Of a stretch of 14,087 nucleotides of DNA, positions 7,680-14,087 are shown one piece after another. The notes beneath the pieces were generated by a model that was given only the letters and a program-made list of their open reading frames with translations, searched no databases and had not been told where the DNA came from. The translations under genes were made by a program, and so were the position numbers. How positions within the stretch are numbered: position 1 is the stretch's first letter; each line of letters opens with the position of its first letter. The DNA is from an uncultured Pseudomonas sp. (GTDB taxonomy: Bacteria; Pseudomonadota; Gammaproteobacteria; Pseudomonadales; Pseudomonadaceae): contig CAMPJN010000058.1 of NCBI GenBank assembly GCA_946886875.1, positions 1-14,087 on the forward strand, given 5' to 3'.

Positions 7680-9161
7680 TTAGGTGGTCAGCGTGCGCAG
7701 TAGATTCTTGTAGTCCTCGCGGATGTCCGCGTCGGATTCCTTAAGTTCAGCAATCTTACGGCATGCATGCAATACCGTGGTGTGATCGCGGCCGCCGAAG
7801 GCGTCGCCGATTTCCGGCAGGCTGTGGTTGGTCAGCTCCTTCGACAACGCCATGGCGACTTGTCGCGGGCGCGCCACCGAACGTGAACGACGTTTGGACA
7901 GCAGGTCGGAAATCTTGATCTTGTAATACTCGGCGACGGTGCGTTGGATATTGTCGATGCTGACCAATTTATCCTGCAACGCCAACAGATCTTTTAGCGA
8001 TTCGCGAATCAACTCGATGGTGATGTCGCGGCCCATAAAGTGCGAGTGGGCGATCACCCGCTTCAACGCGCCTTCGAGTTCGCGCACGTTGGAGCGAATC
8101 CGTTGAGCGATAAAGAAAGCGGCGTCATGCGGCAGATCGACCTTGGCCTGGTCGGCCTTCTTCATCAGGATAGCCACCCGGGTTTCCAACTCGGGCGGCT
8201 CGACCGCCACCGTCAGGCCCCAGCCGAAACGCGACTTGAGACGTTCTTCCAGACCTTCGATTTCCTTCGGGTAACGGTCGCTGGTGAGAATCACCTGCTG
8301 ACCGCCTTCGAGCAAGGCATTGAAGGTGTGGAAAAATTCTTCCTGGGAGCGTTCTTTTTTGGCGAAGAATTGAATGTCGTCGATCAACAGCGCATCCACC
8401 GAGCGATAGAAACGCTTGAACTCGTTGATCGCATTCAACTGCAGTGCCTTGACCATATCGGCGACGAAGCGCTCGGAATGCAGGTAAACCACCTTGGCAT
8501 TGGGGTTCTTCTGCAATAGGTGATTGCCCACCGCATGCATCAAGTGGGTTTTACCTAGACCTACGCCGCCATAGAGAAACAGCGGGTTGTAACCGTGCTT
8601 GGGGTTATCTGCCACCTGCCAGGCGGCCGCGCGCGCGAGCTGGTTGGACTTACCCTCGACGAAGTTGTCGAAGGTGAAGGTCCTGTTCAGGTAACTGGTG
8701 TGCTTGAGGCCACCTTCGACCTGCACCGAACGCTCGGTACGTGCCGGCGCCTGCTGGTTCGCCGCACCGGCCATGGGGTCGAAGCTGGACCGCGAAGGCT
8801 CGCTCTGAGCGGGAGCCGCGGCCTGCTGCGCCACAGAAGCCTGAGCCTGAGCCGGTGCCGATCGGCTCGGCTCCATCGGCGGAGCGCTCACTGCCGCAGC
8901 ACGCGACGCACCGCTGCGCTTACTGCCTATCAATAAGGAAAGCGCAGGTACCAAGCCATTGGTCCGCTCGCCGAGCAGCTCGAGCAAACGACTGAGGTAC
9001 TTTTCATTGACCCAGTCGAGTACGAAACGGTTAGGCGCATACACGCGAAGCTCGTCGCCTTCGGCTTCGACCTGTAGTGGACGGATCCAGGTGTTGAATT
9101 GCTGGGCAGGCAGTTCGTCGCGTAGAAGCTCTACACACTGCTGCCAAAGTTCCACGGACAC
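7680..9161 (-). CDS. dnaA: Chromosomal replication initiator protein DnaA
   Basis: AAA+ initiator that binds DnaA boxes and melts oriC in its ATP form; it is also a transcription factor. The 493 residues divide into domain I (about 1-85, beginning [12 protein letters not shown]), a variable Ala/Ser/Pro/Gln-rich linker domain II (about 86-150), AAA+ domain III with Walker [10 protein letters not shown] (198-206, Lys204), Walker B LLIDDIQF (258-265) and sensor 1 ILTSDR (291-296), and DNA-binding domain IV with the DnaA signature [15 protein letters not shown] (452-466). Translation starts at GTG, with AGGGGA five bases upstream; the protein N-terminus matches other Pseudomonas DnaA. It leads the leftward operon. 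A candidate promoter at 9207-9235 overlaps a perfect DnaA box, which suggests autoregulation. Confidence 0.99.
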
Positions 9162-9313: not shown

Positions 9314-9322
9314 TGTGGATAA
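9314..9322 (-). promoter_or_regulatory. DnaA box, perfect (TGTGGATAA on plus strand)
   Basis: Exact consensus in reverse orientation, in the left-centre of oriC, facing the box at 9229. Confidence 0.9.
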
Positions 9323-9375
9323 CTGACCATGAAGGCTCTGGGTAAACCCAGGCATAACCTCGGGAAAACCCGCCC

Positions 9376-9384
9376 TGTGGGTAA
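9376..9384 (-). promoter_or_regulatory. DnaA box with one mismatch (TGTGGGTAA)
   Basis: One base differs from consensus. It is followed 18 bases later by a weaker opposed match, TCATCCCCA (9394-9402). The same opposed pair, with better boxes and identical spacing, recurs at 14035-14061. Confidence 0.7.
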
Positions 9385-9486
9385 AAGAGCCTTTCATCCC
9401 CAGCTTATGCGCTGTCGCCGCACAGCCGCAGCACCGCTTTCTGACAGACTTACCCTTCCCTGAAAGCCAGGCCTGCAAAAGCCTTG

Positions 9487-9512
9487 AGCCACTTATCCAC
9501 AGACAAGTGGCT
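9487..9512. repeat. Inverted repeat enclosing a DnaA box
   Basis: AGCCACTT and AAGTGGCT are perfectly complementary 8-base arms with a 10-base spacer. The DnaA box TTATCCACA begins on the last two bases of the left arm and fills most of the spacer. In single-stranded form the box would sit in a hairpin loop next to the unwinding region. Confidence 0.7.
9493..9501 (+). promoter_or_regulatory. DnaA box, perfect, next to the unwinding element
   Basis: Exact TTATCCACA. It is the last box before the AT-rich tract, about 35 bases from it, and so the natural place from which DnaA would extend onto single-stranded DNA. Confidence 0.9.
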
Positions 9513-9536
9513 AGCTAAGTATTACTAGCATTACAG

Positions 9537-9581
9537 AACATCTTTAAATATCTCTTCTTTATATTTCTTATATTCATCCAA
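9537..9581. other. AT-rich DNA unwinding element
   Basis: A 45-base stretch with no G on the plus strand; 9541-9577 has only six C in 37 bases. TATCTCTTCTTTA (9549-9561) matches nine of the eleven fixed bases of the E. coli 13-mer GATCTNTTNTTTT. TATATTTCT and TATATTCAT form an imperfect tandem 9-mer at 9560-9577. Position beside the last DnaA box fits a duplex-unwinding element. Confidence 0.82.
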
Positions 9582-9685: not shown

Positions 9686-9820
9686 ATGAAACGTACTTTC
9701 CAACCCAGCACTATCAAACGCGCTCGCACCCACGGTTTCCGTGCTCGTATGGCCACCAAGAACGGCCGTGCTGTCCTGTCGCGTCGCCGCGCCAAGGGCC
9801 GTAAGCGTCTCGCCGTTTAA
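9686..9820 (+). CDS. rpmH: 50S ribosomal protein L34
   Basis: Small, very basic protein of the large ribosomal subunit. The 44 residues are the normal length and begin with the typical MKRTFQPS, followed by [11 protein letters not shown] and [16 protein letters not shown], all hallmarks of L34. The frame is open upstream, but the ATG at 9686 gives the conserved N-terminus. Only a short AGG nine bases before it acts as ribosome-binding site. It is first in the rightward operon, driven by the near-consensus promoter at 9597-9625, and rnpA starts 11 bases after its stop. The rpmH-rnpA pairing next to oriC is very widely conserved. Confidence 0.99.
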
Positions 9821-10476: not shown

Positions 10477-12225
10477 ATGGATATTCAACGCTCGATCCTG
10501 ATCGTCGCCCTGGCAATCGTGTCCTATATGATGGTTCTTCAGTGGAACCAGGATTACGGTCAAGCTGCCCTGCCGACTCAAACTGCTACAGCCAGCAGCA
10601 GCGTTCCGGGTCTGCCGGAAACCTCGGCGGCGGCCGATACTTCCAGCAGCGACGACATCCCGACCGCCGTTGGCGCTGTCGAGCCTAGCGCGATCAGCGC
10701 GGCGCCCGCGGCCAGCAGCGACAAATTGATTCGAGTGAAAACCGACGTACTGGACCTGGCCATCGATCCACGTGGCGGTGATGTGGTGCAGTTGACTCTG
10801 CCCCAGTACCCGCGCCGTCAAGATCACCCGGATGTGCCTTTCCAGCTGTTCGATAACGGTGGCGAGCGGGTTTATCTGGCGCAAAGCGGCCTGATCGGCA
10901 GCAACGCACCGGACAAGTCGAGCGGCCGTGCGCTGTGGAGCAGCGCGCAACGCAGCTATGAACTGGCCGAAGGCCAGGACCAACTGCAGGTCGACCTGAC
11001 CCTCAGCGAAGCAGGTGTCAATTACATCAAGCGTTTCACCTTCAAGCGTGGCTTGAACCCGGAATGCTCGACCAAACAGCAGGAGCTGAAAAAGCCTGGT
11101 TGCGTCGACCCCGCGTCCTATCAGGTGGAAGTCAGCTACCTGATCGACAACCAGAGCCAGCAAGCATGGAGCGGCAACATGTTTGCCCAGCTCAAGCGCG
11201 ATGCCAGCGATGATCCTTCTTCGACCACCGCCACCGGCACCGCGACTTATCTCGGCGGCGCCCTGTGGACCGCCGAAGAGCCGTACAAAAAAGTGTCGAT
11301 GAAAGATATCGACAAGCAACCCTTCAAGGACAGCGTCGAAGGTGGCTGGGTCGCCTGGCTGCAGCACTATTTCGTTACCGCCTGGATTCCTCAAAAGGGC
11401 ACCACCAACCTGGTGCAGACCCGTAAAGACAGCCAGGGCAACTATATCGTTGGCTTCACCGGGCCGACCATTCAGGCCGCTCCGGGCGAGCAGGCGCAAA
11501 CCAGCGCAACCCTATATGCCGGCCCCAAGCTGCAAGGTCATTTGAAGACCCTGTCGCCCGGCCTCGAACTGACCGTCGACTACGGCATCCTGTGGTTCCT
11601 CGCCCAACCGATCTTCTGGTTGCTCGAACATATCCACAGCCTGTTGGGTAACTGGGGCTGGTCGATCATCGTCCTGACCCTGATCATCAAGCTGATCTTC
11701 TTCCCGCTGTCCGCCGCCAGCTACAAGTCCATGGCGCGCATGCGTGCCGTAGCACCCAAGCTGGCTGCGCTGAAGGAACAGTTCGGCGACGACCGGCAGA
11801 AAATGTCCCAGGGCATGATGGAGCTGTACAAGAAGGAGAAGATCAACCCCCTGGGCGGTTGCTTGCCGATTCTGGTGCAGATGCCTGTGTTCCTCGCGCT
11901 CTACTGGACCTTGCTGGAAAGCGTGGAAATGCGCCAGGCACCTTGGCTGCTGTGGATAACCGACCTGTCGATCAAGGATCCGTTCTTTATCCTGCCGATC
12001 ATCATGGGCGCCACCATGTTTATTCAGCAGCAGCTCAACCCGACTCCACCGGACCCGATGCAAGCCAAGGTACTGAAGATGATGCCGATCATCTTCACCT
12101 TCTTCTTCCTCTGGTTCCCTGCCGGTCTGGTGCTGTACTGGGTGGTCAACAACGTCTTGTCCATCGCCCAGCAGTGGTACATTACCCGCAAGGTCGAAGC
12201 AGCAACCAAGGCGGCCGCCGCCTGA
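10477..12225 (+). CDS. yidC: Membrane protein insertase YidC (Oxa1 family)
   Basis: Inserts and folds inner-membrane proteins, alone or with SecYEG. The 582-residue protein has an N-terminal membrane anchor (about 5-22), an Ala/Ser-rich linker (30-80), a large periplasmic beta-sandwich domain (about 82-360) and the conserved insertase core with membrane segments near 370-388, 395-412, 462-482, 504-520 and 536-570. The conserved positive residue of the hydrophilic groove (Arg366 in E. coli) appears to be Lys405 in LIIKLIFFPL. INPLGGCLPILVQMPVFLAL (456-475) is a family hallmark. Cys197 and Cys209 lie in a periplasmic loop and could form a disulfide. The frame is open 24 codons upstream inside yidD, but the ATG at 10477 gives the standard MDIQRS start; its ribosome-binding site is weak, so coupling to yidD is likely. 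Confidence 0.99.
   Translation: MDIQRSILIVALAIVSYMMVLQWNQDYGQAALPTQTATASSSVPGLPETSAAADTSSSDDIPTAVGAVEPSAISAAPAASSDKLIRVKTDVLDLAIDPRGGDVVQLTLPQYPRRQDHPDVPFQLFDNGGERVYLAQSGLIGSNAPDKSSGRALWSSAQRSYELAEGQDQLQVDLTLSEAGVNYIKRFTFKRGLNPECSTKQQELKKPGCVDPASYQVEVSYLIDNQSQQAWSGNMFAQLKRDASDDPSSTTATGTATYLGGALWTAEEPYKKVSMKDIDKQPFKDSVEGGWVAWLQHYFVTAWIPQKGTTNLVQTRKDSQGNYIVGFTGPTIQAAPGEQAQTSATLYAGPKLQGHLKTLSPGLELTVDYGILWFLAQPIFWLLEHIHSLLGNWGWSIIVLTLIIKLIFFPLSAASYKSMARMRAVAPKLAALKEQFGDDRQKMSQGMMELYKKEKINPLGGCLPILVQMPVFLALYWTLLESVEMRQAPWLLWITDLSIKDPFFILPIIMGATMFIQQQLNPTPPDPMQAKVLKMMPIIFTFFFLWFPAGLVLYWVVNNVLSIAQQWYITRKVEAATKAAAA
11951..11959 (-). promoter_or_regulatory. Perfect DnaA box inside yidC
   Basis: TGTGGATAA is an exact reverse-orientation DnaA box in the codons for Leu-Trp-Ile-Thr. 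It uses ATA for Ile, a rare choice in this GC-rich genome. It lies between the two intergenic clusters. It may be chance; roughly 0.1 exact boxes are expected in 14 kb of random sequence. Confidence 0.4.
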
Positions 12226-12276: not shown

Positions 12277-12300
12277 GCTATGTCGTATTTGGAGAGCCGC

Positions 12301-13668
12301 ATGCAAGCAAGCCGTGAAACCATCGCTGCCGTCGCCACCGCTCAAGGCCGTGGCGGCGTCGGCATAGTTCGGGTCTCCGGCCCTTTGGCGGCAACCTTGG
12401 CGCAGGCGATCTGCCAACGTCAGCTAACACCGCGCTACGCCCATTACGGCCCATTCTTCGCCGACGCCGAGCAGGTACTGGACGAGGGCCTGGCGCTGTA
12501 TTTCCCCGGGCCTAATTCCTTTACCGGCGAAGATGTGCTGGAACTGCAAGGCCACGGTGGGCCGGTGGTTCTTGACCTGTTGCTGCGCCGTTGCCTGCAA
12601 TTGGGCGCGCGCCTGGCCCACCCCGGGGAGTTCAGCGAGCGCGCGTTTCTCAACGATAAACTCGACCTGGCCCAGGCCGAAGCCATTGCCGATCTGATCG
12701 AAGCCAGTTCGGAACAGGCCGCGCGCAATGCCCTGCGCTCGTTGCAGGGCGAATTCTCGCGCCGCGTGCACGGCCTGACCGAACGCCTGATCAGCCTGCG
12801 CATCTACGTCGAAGCGGCCATCGACTTTCCCGAAGAGGAAATCGACTTTCTCGCCGACGGCCATGTGTTGAATCTGCTCGATGGTGTGCGCACCGATCTG
12901 GCCGGGGTGCTGCGCGAGGCCGGTCAAGGCGCATTGCTGCGCGACGGTATGACGGTGGTGATCGCCGGCCGGCCGAACGCCGGCAAGTCCAGCCTGCTGA
13001 ATGCCCTGGCCGGGCGTGAAGCCGCGATCGTCACCGAGATAGCCGGCACCACCCGGGATGTGTTGCGCGAACATATCCACATCGATGGCATGCCGCTGCA
13101 TGTGGTGGACACCGCCGGCTTGCGCGCGACCGAGGATCAGGTCGAACGCATCGGCGTCGAACGCGCCCTGAAAGCCATTGGCGAAGCCGATCGGATACTG
13201 CTGGTGGTCGACGCCACCGCGCCCGAGGCCGACGACCCCTTCTCGCTCTGGCCGGAATTTCTCGACCAGCGGCCTGACCCGGCCAAGGTCACGCTGATCC
13301 GCAACAAGGCCGACCTGTCCGGCGAAGCCACGGTGCTGGAAGTCAGCGACGATGGCCACGTCACCATCAGCCTCTCAGCCAAGTCCAGCGACGGCTTGGA
13401 TCTGCTGCGCGAACATCTGAAAGCCTGCATGGGCTACGAACAAACCGCCGAGAGCAGCTTCAGCGCCCGCAGGCGCCACCTGGAAGCCTTGCGCCAGGCC
13501 TCCACACACCTGGAACACGGCCACGCCCAGCTGACCCTGGCCGGAGCCGGCGAATTGCTGGCCGAAGACCTGCGTATGGCGCAACAGGCGCTCGGCGAAA
13601 TCACCGGGGCCTTCAGCTCCGACGACTTGCTGGGGCGGATCTTTTCCAGCTTCTGCATAGGAAAATGA
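12301..13668 (+). CDS. mnmE: tRNA uridine-5-carboxymethylaminomethyl(34) synthesis GTPase MnmE
   Basis: Potassium-dependent GTPase that, with MnmG, modifies the wobble uridine of several tRNAs. The 455 residues show a tetrahydrofolate-binding N-terminal domain (about 1-120), helical parts, and an inserted G domain: G1 GRPNAGKS (223-230), G2 GTTRD (249-253), G3 DTAG (270-273), G4 NKAD (335-338). The C-terminal catalytic CIGK (452-455) is intact. An ATG seven codons earlier (12280) lies right behind the yidC terminator and lacks a ribosome-binding site; GGAG six bases before 12301 and the conserved [15 protein letters not shown] favour the later start. Being behind a terminator, it needs readthrough or its own promoter, which I cannot see clearly. 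mnmG is usually downstream and would lie beyond the window. Confidence 0.98.
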
Positions 13669-13696
13669 GCGCCAGGCTTTAAGCCGCAGAAGCCTT

Positions 13697-13765
13697 CGTA
13701 GCCCGGATGTAATCCGGGGAAATCTCTCGGCTATGAAACTGCTCCCGGATTGCATCCGGGCTACG
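13697..13765. repeat. REP inverted pair (REPIN/BIME-like)
   Basis: Two 22-base units, 13697-13718 and 13744-13765, are inverted copies of each other with one mismatch, 25 bases apart. Each has its own 7-bp hairpin, CCCGGAT with ATCCGGG around three bases, preceded by CGTAG on its outer side. This is the build of pseudomonad REP doublets mobilised by TnpA-REP (RAYT) transposases. It sits 28 bases after mnmE and may also stabilise or end its transcript. Confidence 0.85.
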
Positions 13766-13956
13766 AGCCTCAGGTTCTCGGCGTCGCGTACTCCATCATG
13801 TCGCTGCACTTCCCTGATGGGTTATGGGGGCATCTGACCCCCTCTCGAATCTGAAATTTCCTTTCTGCGCCGAATCCATCCTACGTCCTGAAATTCCTCT
13901 TTATGTCATCCCGACAGGCATCCGTCTGGGTGAAACAGCCGTGTCCGCTCACTTAT
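13766..13956. other. Non-coding stretch between REP pair and DnaA cluster
   Basis: No convincing gene in either strand. It holds a small GGGGG/CCCCC hairpin (13826-13842) with no T-run and an imperfect direct repeat, CTGAAATTTCCTTT (13851-13864) and CTGAAATTCCTCTTT (13888-13902). The pyrimidine-rich 13856-13908 part is the least GC-rich here and could hold a promoter for a gene to the right. Confidence 0.4.
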
Positions 13957-14061
13957 TTATCCACCTAAGCCCTGTGGAAAACCCGCCCTGAGCCCTGCCC
14001 ATAACCCGGTGATAAAACGGAGGATAACCGCCCCTGTGGATAACCATCACTTTCATCCACA
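13957..14061. other. Second DnaA-box cluster, oriC-like
   Basis: Within 105 bases there are one perfect DnaA box (14035-14043, TGTGGATAA, reverse) and three with a single mismatch: TTATCCACC (13957-13965), TGTGGAAAA (13973-13981) and TCATCCACA (14053-14061). A two-mismatch site lies at 14019-14027. It shares GGAAAACCCGCCCTG with oriC (9363-9377 and 13976-13990), and 14034-14065 aligns without gaps to 9375-9406 (24 of 32 identical). I recall a second DnaA-box region upstream of mnmG/gidA, with origin activity, reported in Pseudomonas. It may continue past the window end. Confidence 0.8.
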
Positions 14062-14087
14062 GCTTGCGTACGGCAACTGAACAGGCA

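Follow-up and report, generated by a model that had tools for sequence, protein, structure and literature searches.

A candidate second oriC-type DnaA-box module upstream of mnmG in Pseudomonas

The DnaA-box cluster that follows mnmE in the stretch of DNA analyzed here (14,087 nucleotides from an uncultured Pseudomonas sp., hereafter the window) is best read as part of a second oriC-type module upstream of mnmG, namely its left half. This module (oriC2) would be an old paralogue of oriC that acts as a secondary or conditional origin, a reading to which a probability of about 0.6 was assigned. It is probably DnaA-dependent, and its firing is a prediction. DnaA would bind a fixed array of boxes at 0 (-), 62 (-), 80 (+), and 179 (+), assemble towards the +179 box, and then melt an AT-rich element, as at oriC and at the E. 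coli oriC beside mnmG. The module between dnaA and rpmH (oriC1) would carry most initiation; the mnmG-side module may also hold DnaA, and transcription of mnmG may affect melting. Bacterial chromosomes are usually taken to be single-origin. A paralogous, same-register, genus-conserved second oriC module with its own unwinding-type element would offer a defined test of the use of two neighboring origins, and origin prediction in Pseudomonas-type genomes meets two candidates.

Box clusters in the window

Gene names were assigned from the sequence. The minus strand carries gyrB, recF, dnaN, and dnaA, and the plus strand then carries rpmH, rnpA, yidC, and mnmE. The left neighbor of oriC1 is dnaA (7680-9161, minus strand), which was taken from the list of open reading frames and served as the dnaA query; its right neighbor is rpmH (9688-9819, plus strand). 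Yee and Smith are said to have placed the Pseudomonas oriC between these two genes in 1990. The oriC1 array (9314-9501, plus strand) comprises boxes starting at 9314 (-), 9376 (-), 9394 (+, two mismatches), and 9493 (+), i.e. a register of 0/62/80/179. By predicted duplex stability, no 50-mer of the window is less stable than the unwinding-type element (DUE) of oriC1 (9523-9572, plus strand).

The left neighbor of oriC2 in the window is mnmE (12280-13668, plus strand), identified from the open-reading-frame list and homologous loci. The left part of oriC2 (13958-14087, plus strand) is expected to run past the window end. Its boxes are found at register 0 (TTTTCCACA, 13973-13981, minus strand, the place of E. 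coli R4), register 62 (an exact box, 14035-14043, minus strand), and register 80 (TCATCCACA, 14053-14061, plus strand), exactly as in oriC1. A weak box with two mismatches is located at register 46 (TTATCCTCC, 14019-14027, minus strand), and a box at the same position was found in Amphritea (L056). An extra box (TTATCCACC, 13957-13965, plus strand) is not part of the conserved register. The four boxes with at most one mismatch listed in the first-pass annotation (13957+, 13973-, the exact 14035-, and 14053+) were all recovered. A 23-base inverted repeat (TCGTAGCCCGGATG...; 13696-13718 and 13744-13766, 96% complementary, arms 25 bases apart) directly follows mnmE and resembles a REP-type palindrome; an exact DnaA box (11951-11959) is present within yidC, between both modules.

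A chance cluster of boxes was rejected by shuffle controls. The window holds 12 boxes with at most one mismatch (1.6 expected), a number reached in none of 200 shuffles. When the three-box register 0/62/80 was sought with up to 8 of 27 mismatches, only the sites at 9314 (three mismatches) and 13973 (two) were returned on the plus strand, and a single match (4624, eight mismatches) was returned on the minus strand. The best register score in 2000 dinucleotide shuffles of the gap was nine mismatches.

The first-pass annotation had proposed that the cluster is a rearranged duplication of oriC. Its observations were reproduced: an exact 15-mer occurs at 13976-13990 and 9363-9377, positions 14034-14065 and 9375-9406 agree at 24 of 32 bases, and an opposed pair of boxes keeps an 18-base offset at both sites. 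Duplication of oriC is strongly supported by the box register, the spacers, and the place of the unwinding element. Rearrangement was rejected. The order of the two segments had been said to differ, yet the 15-mer precedes the 32-base segment on the same strand at both sites (9363 then 9375; 13976 then 14034), and the in-register copies are collinear. The 15-mer itself is out of register, at offset 49 in oriC and offset 3 in the mnmG-side cluster, and is therefore no sign of rearrangement.

The window ends at position 14087 and does not reach the +179 box and unwinding element of the mnmG-side module, or mnmG itself; the fourth register position would be 14152. The last 26 bases of the window were compared in register with oriC2 of two relatives (L039 and L012) and matched at 16 of 26 positions in each case (null mean 6.2, maximum 14). 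Because the window ends first, we infer the right half of oriC2 in this genome from the relatives and from this in-register match.

The two modules in relatives

Loci were fetched with MnmE, and the best 80 of at least 584 were used; the nearest relative among these is Pseudomonas sp. GD03944 (L039), with 82% DNA identity over 8.4 kb aligned. Loci L001-L047 are Pseudomonas, Stutzerimonas, and Halopseudomonas by title (L023 is labelled Paucimonas). All contain mnmE, and 46 of the 47 reach mnmG. A box pair was located at most 600 bases upstream of mnmG in those 46, although the pair in L047 was anchored at the wrong place (five mismatches); a four-box search found the L047 register, also with five mismatches. 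The earlier expectation that mnmG lies downstream is therefore supported in the relatives examined, while the window itself ends before that gene. The location beside mnmG (gidA) that is characteristic of an oriC was thus found in 46 loci and in 10 of 10 genomes of the family sample described below.

When the mnmG-side sequences of L001-L047 were aligned by their box pair, they showed, in this order, a TATCCACAGA-type box at +179, AATAAACATAAAAAC...TTTCTCTCTTTTT, a conserved CCTATACT, and the start of mnmG. The AT-rich element begins about 20 bases past the +179 box. Nearest-neighbor stability singled out the elements of the two modules as the two least stable 50-mers in 40 of 40 loci (roughly 15 kb each), with median predicted starts of +207 (oriC1) and +206 (oriC2). 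A DUE beside the mnmG-side array is accordingly present in the relatives by predicted stability; the window holds only that of oriC1. A conserved CTGG(C/T)TATTTTTTGTGCAG-like block follows the unwinding element and precedes the mnmG start in L001 (about 9007-9040) and in many relatives; one terminator-like match was obtained in L001 (0.7 expected). A search of L001 8300-9200 against Rfam returned no hits.

The module precedes mnmG by roughly 370-560 bases, also in genomes with a distant mnmE, and insertions of 4 to 6 kb between the two genes leave it beside mnmG. In L007 (8425-12418, between mnmE and the module), the genes were annotated by eye as an apparent TonB-dependent receptor/FecR-like/sigma-factor-like set; similar 4.6-kb gaps occur in L004, L010, L014, L015, and L016, with the genes read in L007 only.

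With up to five mismatches, the four-box pattern was detected on the dnaA-rpmH side in 41 of the 47 loci, on the mnmG side in 44, and on both in 40. The mnmG-side boxes are present in L040 and L045 even though the pattern missed them; the last box is one base further along. The dnaA-side pattern was missed in six loci (L012, L019, L026, L040, L045, and L046). There is no rpmH in the L026 stretch, and the dnaA-side register was found in the L019 genome with one base of slack.

A stricter pattern (at most three mismatches) was applied to 149 genomes of the genus. Exactly two matches on one strand were obtained in 137, one match in 11, and none in 1; the reversed-pattern control gave 0 of 149. 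The 137 pairs are counted from the pattern itself, and those listed are about 4.3 to 9.3 kb apart. The 12 exceptions were rescored with one base of slack: the mnmG-side register was present in all 12 (z of -12.1 or lower), and the dnaA-side register was clear in nine and weaker in G036 (z -4.5); the records of G044 and G116 are cut at dnaA. The fixed order, orientation, and spacing of boxes that define an oriC were therefore found for three of four boxes in the window and, in the genus, in the 137 genomes and the other 12. Loss of the boxes in close relatives with the flanks kept, which the first-pass annotation had named as evidence against its view, was looked for in the genus and was not encountered: the 12 genomes with fewer than two strict matches all keep the mnmG-side register.

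In a sample of the family, 55 of 79 genomes had at least one strict match (two in 26, one in 29) and 24 had none (control, 0 of 79); on this pattern search, the register appears to loosen, or one copy to be lost, outside the genus. Ten genomes were picked from the 26 with two matches, and in all ten the modules were found just before rpmH and just before mnmG, even with mnmE and mnmG 10 kb apart. No dnaA, dnaN, recF, or gyrB was found in the 1.8-2.4 kb to the left of the rpmH-side module in five of them (L224-L227 and L230); the left neighbors in L227 resemble ampD and ampE. Thus, each module keeps to its right-hand gene, and the rpmH-side copy needs no adjacent dnaA. Six further family genomes resembling P. 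jinjuensis had one strict match (five genomes) or two (one genome). By a looser score, both copies were present in five; the sixth (L221) had only the mnmG-side copy, and its 14.7 kb fetched contained no dnaA, rpmH, or mnmE.

At the level of the order (28 genomes, 26 readable), the mnmG-side register outscored all 60 shuffles in 9 of 26 genomes, the dnaA-side register did so in 7 of 26, and both did in 3 (G001, G175, and G162). In a class-wide draw of 27 genomes, which seemingly includes none with an E. coli-type origin, the mnmG-side register was found in 0 of 24 readable others (z of -2.5 or higher, at most one box; two were not readable), and the dnaA side scored a z of -3 or lower in 4 of 23 readable others. 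The register at mnmG is therefore not general in the class. Beyond the Pseudomonadaceae, DnaA-box clusters were also noted upstream of mnmG in Marinomonas (L061 and L075), Amphritea (L056), and Marinobacterium (L053 and L078), and in Marinomonas an 18-base opposed pair occurs upstream of rpmH too. On its mnmG side, the Amphritea locus matches the Pseudomonas register with four mismatches.

Spacers (sequence outside the boxes) were compared in 40 loci. The two copies in one genome agreed at 43-45% in register and at 24% when slid; orthologous copies agreed at 55-57%. The window's own pair had an agreement of 0.51 over 91 columns. Sharing a genome did not bring the copies closer (0.430 within vs. 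0.427 between genomes; 40 loci), and a recent copy or gene conversion was rejected on this basis. Because the spacers agree in register and same-genome copies are no closer, the alignments indicate common descent of the modules, a split that predates the diversification of the genus, and no homogenisation, i.e. an old duplication with both copies conserved. A tree of 41 rows placed the resolved Pseudomonadaceae copies with others from the same site rather than the same genome; of its 38 inner branches, 18 are open, neither site forms one clade, and there are six label changes, at least one of them forced. Being poorly resolved, the tree gives no date for the duplication.

Column conservation from 0 to +260 was 0.59-0.80 in both modules. 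For oriC2, columns -20 to +260 scored 0.62-0.80, compared to 0.34-0.40 in the upstream flank; downstream, conservation declines to 0.52-0.63 as far as +340 and then to 0.40-0.46. The flanks of oriC1 scored 0.45-0.67 upstream (running into dnaA) and fall to 0.38-0.42 downstream. The first-pass annotation had judged the mnmG-side boxes to be the better ones. This is true of the two pairs it compared, but not across loci (44 oriC2, 41 oriC1): the +80 box is the only register box that is better in the mnmG-side copy, and those at 0/62/179 are weaker (mean mismatches of 0.98/0.64/0.64 vs. 0.39/0.29/0.29 in oriC1). The commonest +179 box is CTATCCACA on the mnmG side (25 of 44) and TTATCCACA in oriC1 (32 of 41). 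In the available text of the gammaBOriS paper (PMC7174414), TCTATCCACAGAA is given as a motif of Pseudomonas origins; it agrees with the +179 box commonest on the mnmG side rather than with that of oriC1.

Possible roles of the mnmG-side module

Among the roles offered by the first-pass annotation, a second origin fits best, since the copy has its own conserved unwinding-type element and a pure titration or promoter site should need none. This element argues for opening of the module, not mere binding. DnaA binding, unwinding, and a start of replication at the mnmG-side module are predicted. A secondary or conditional origin is the best reading of the conserved element together with the accessible portions of four reports (PMC4403523, PMC6323995, PMC7174414, and PMC12000880). 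Fourfold-site GC skew did not discriminate which copy is used.

The module could instead be a reservoir or activity-control site for DnaA (titration or reactivation, in the manner of datA/DARS) that tunes timing near oriC without opening. Dense boxes near oriC, which are replicated right after it, would suit this role, as would conservation of the array across the genus sample. It is nonetheless unlikely: in each of 40 loci examined, an unwinding-type element is located at the oriC-like place and ranks with the least stable DNA of the locus, this element is about as conserved as the boxes, and the full origin register is kept rather than boxes alone.

It is less likely still that the two modules form one two-lobed origin and cooperate at each initiation by DnaA bridging and DNA looping. 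Both are conserved together in the genus and share an orientation; however, each has its own unwinding-type element, and published bipartite origins, in the available part of PMC4285127, span at most about 2 kb and have a DUE in one of their parts. A rigid two-lobed origin, also among the roles proposed earlier, is disfavored because the copies are 4.3 to 13.9 kb apart between genomes.

DnaA control of mnmG transcription, with the origin likeness a leftover, is given a low likelihood. The proximity of the module to mnmG, whether mnmE is distant or not, and the conserved CCTATACT between the unwinding element and the mnmG start are in its favor. On the other hand, the conserved boxes are some 200-380 bases upstream of CCTATACT in L001, no sigma-70-type promoter match was obtained in L001 8650-9130, and such control would not be expected to keep the origin register and an unwinding element.

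Finally, a functionless relic of an ancestral second origin, suggested by boxes weaker than those of oriC1 at three of four places and by the dispensability of one of two P. aeruginosa origins (available text of PMC4403523), is very improbable, as module columns about as conserved as those of oriC1 (0.62-0.80 vs. 0.34-0.40 in the upstream flank) and a register present in 149 of 149 genus genomes (137 by two strict matches, 12 by the looser score) are unlike drift.

Comparison with known origins

No description of a second, mnmG-side module in Pseudomonas was found in the literature searched, as far as its text was available; key older papers were outside its reach. Ogasawara and Yoshikawa (Mol Microbiol 1992) reportedly mentioned a region of DnaA boxes ahead of the P. 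putida gidA gene, and if so, the mnmG-side site itself is not new.

The mnmG-side module resembles oriC1 in its register (0/62/80/179), in its unwinding-type element at about +206, and in its orientation. It differs in being upstream of mnmG rather than rpmH, in its stronger +80 and weaker 0/62/179 boxes, and in spacers that are only 43-45% identical to those of oriC1. Sites of the datA/DARS type have DnaA boxes with IHF (and Fis) sites and no DUE; the mnmG-side module, by predicted stability, has a DUE-type element.

Bipartite origins such as those of B. subtilis and H. pylori likewise have two nearby DnaA-box clusters in the dnaA region. According to the accessible part of PMC4285127, a spacer gene lies between their clusters, the whole origin spans up to about 2 kb, and one of the clusters has the DUE. 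The Pseudomonas pair, unlike these, has a DUE-type element in both modules and a distance of 4.3-13.9 kb; neither a short distance nor a DUE confined to one cluster was found.

Pre-priming complexes have been studied in vitro on two P. aeruginosa elements that replicate autonomously, and just one of the two origins is essential in laboratory conditions (available text of PMC4403523); the other may accordingly be a relic. The second P. aeruginosa origin capable of autonomous replication (Jiang et al. 2006), as described in the portion available, is also a second origin-like element on a Pseudomonas chromosome, and its identity with the mnmG-side module is predicted. In the parts of the respective papers available, DoriC curators report two predicted oriCs in some Gammaproteobacteria, of which the gidA-side one alone was kept (PMC6323995), and a DnaA-dependent alternative origin on the dnaA-rpmH side is discussed for E. 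coli rnhA-type mutants, whose normal oriC is beside gidA (PMC12000880).

The oriC of the E. coli/Vibrio type is located upstream of the same gene, mnmG (gidA), on the same side and in the same orientation as the Pseudomonas module. Its outer inverted pair is 180 apart in E. coli (R4-R1) and Photobacterium, compared to 179 in Pseudomonas, and its unwinding element is at about +203 in both (the E. coli anchor being one base early), compared to +206. Read in the direction of the unwinding element and mnmG, the E. coli R1 box is TTATCCACAG, and the same holds for the Pseudomonas module; the inner boxes are at other places. Spacer similarity with the E. coli oriC was 0.29 and 0.28 (slid mean 0.25, slid maxima 0.31 and 0.32), and that with Photobacterium was marginal (0.306 vs. 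a slid maximum of 0.296, and 0.295 vs. 0.299). Because spacer similarity is not above control for E. coli and is marginal for Photobacterium, common descent of the enteric origin and the mnmG-side module is suggested by geometry and position but not proven. Upstream of rpmH, a box pair 177-182 apart (at most two mismatches per box) was present in 9 of 31 readable outgroup loci, mostly of the Halomonas type; stability was computed for eight of the nine, and the least stable 50-mer was at +199 to +202 in four and elsewhere in four.

The module might explain how oriC came to adjoin mnmG in enteric bacteria. Tentatively, and with the odds judged to be against it, Pseudomonas may represent an ancestral state with two complete DnaA-dependent origins, before rpmH and before mnmG, both able to fire; the mnmG copy would have been retained in the ancestry of enterics and vibrios, and the rpmH copy in Halomonas-type lines. 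Such a two-origin ancestor, if real, would explain why the E. coli oriC is beside gidA and not dnaA.
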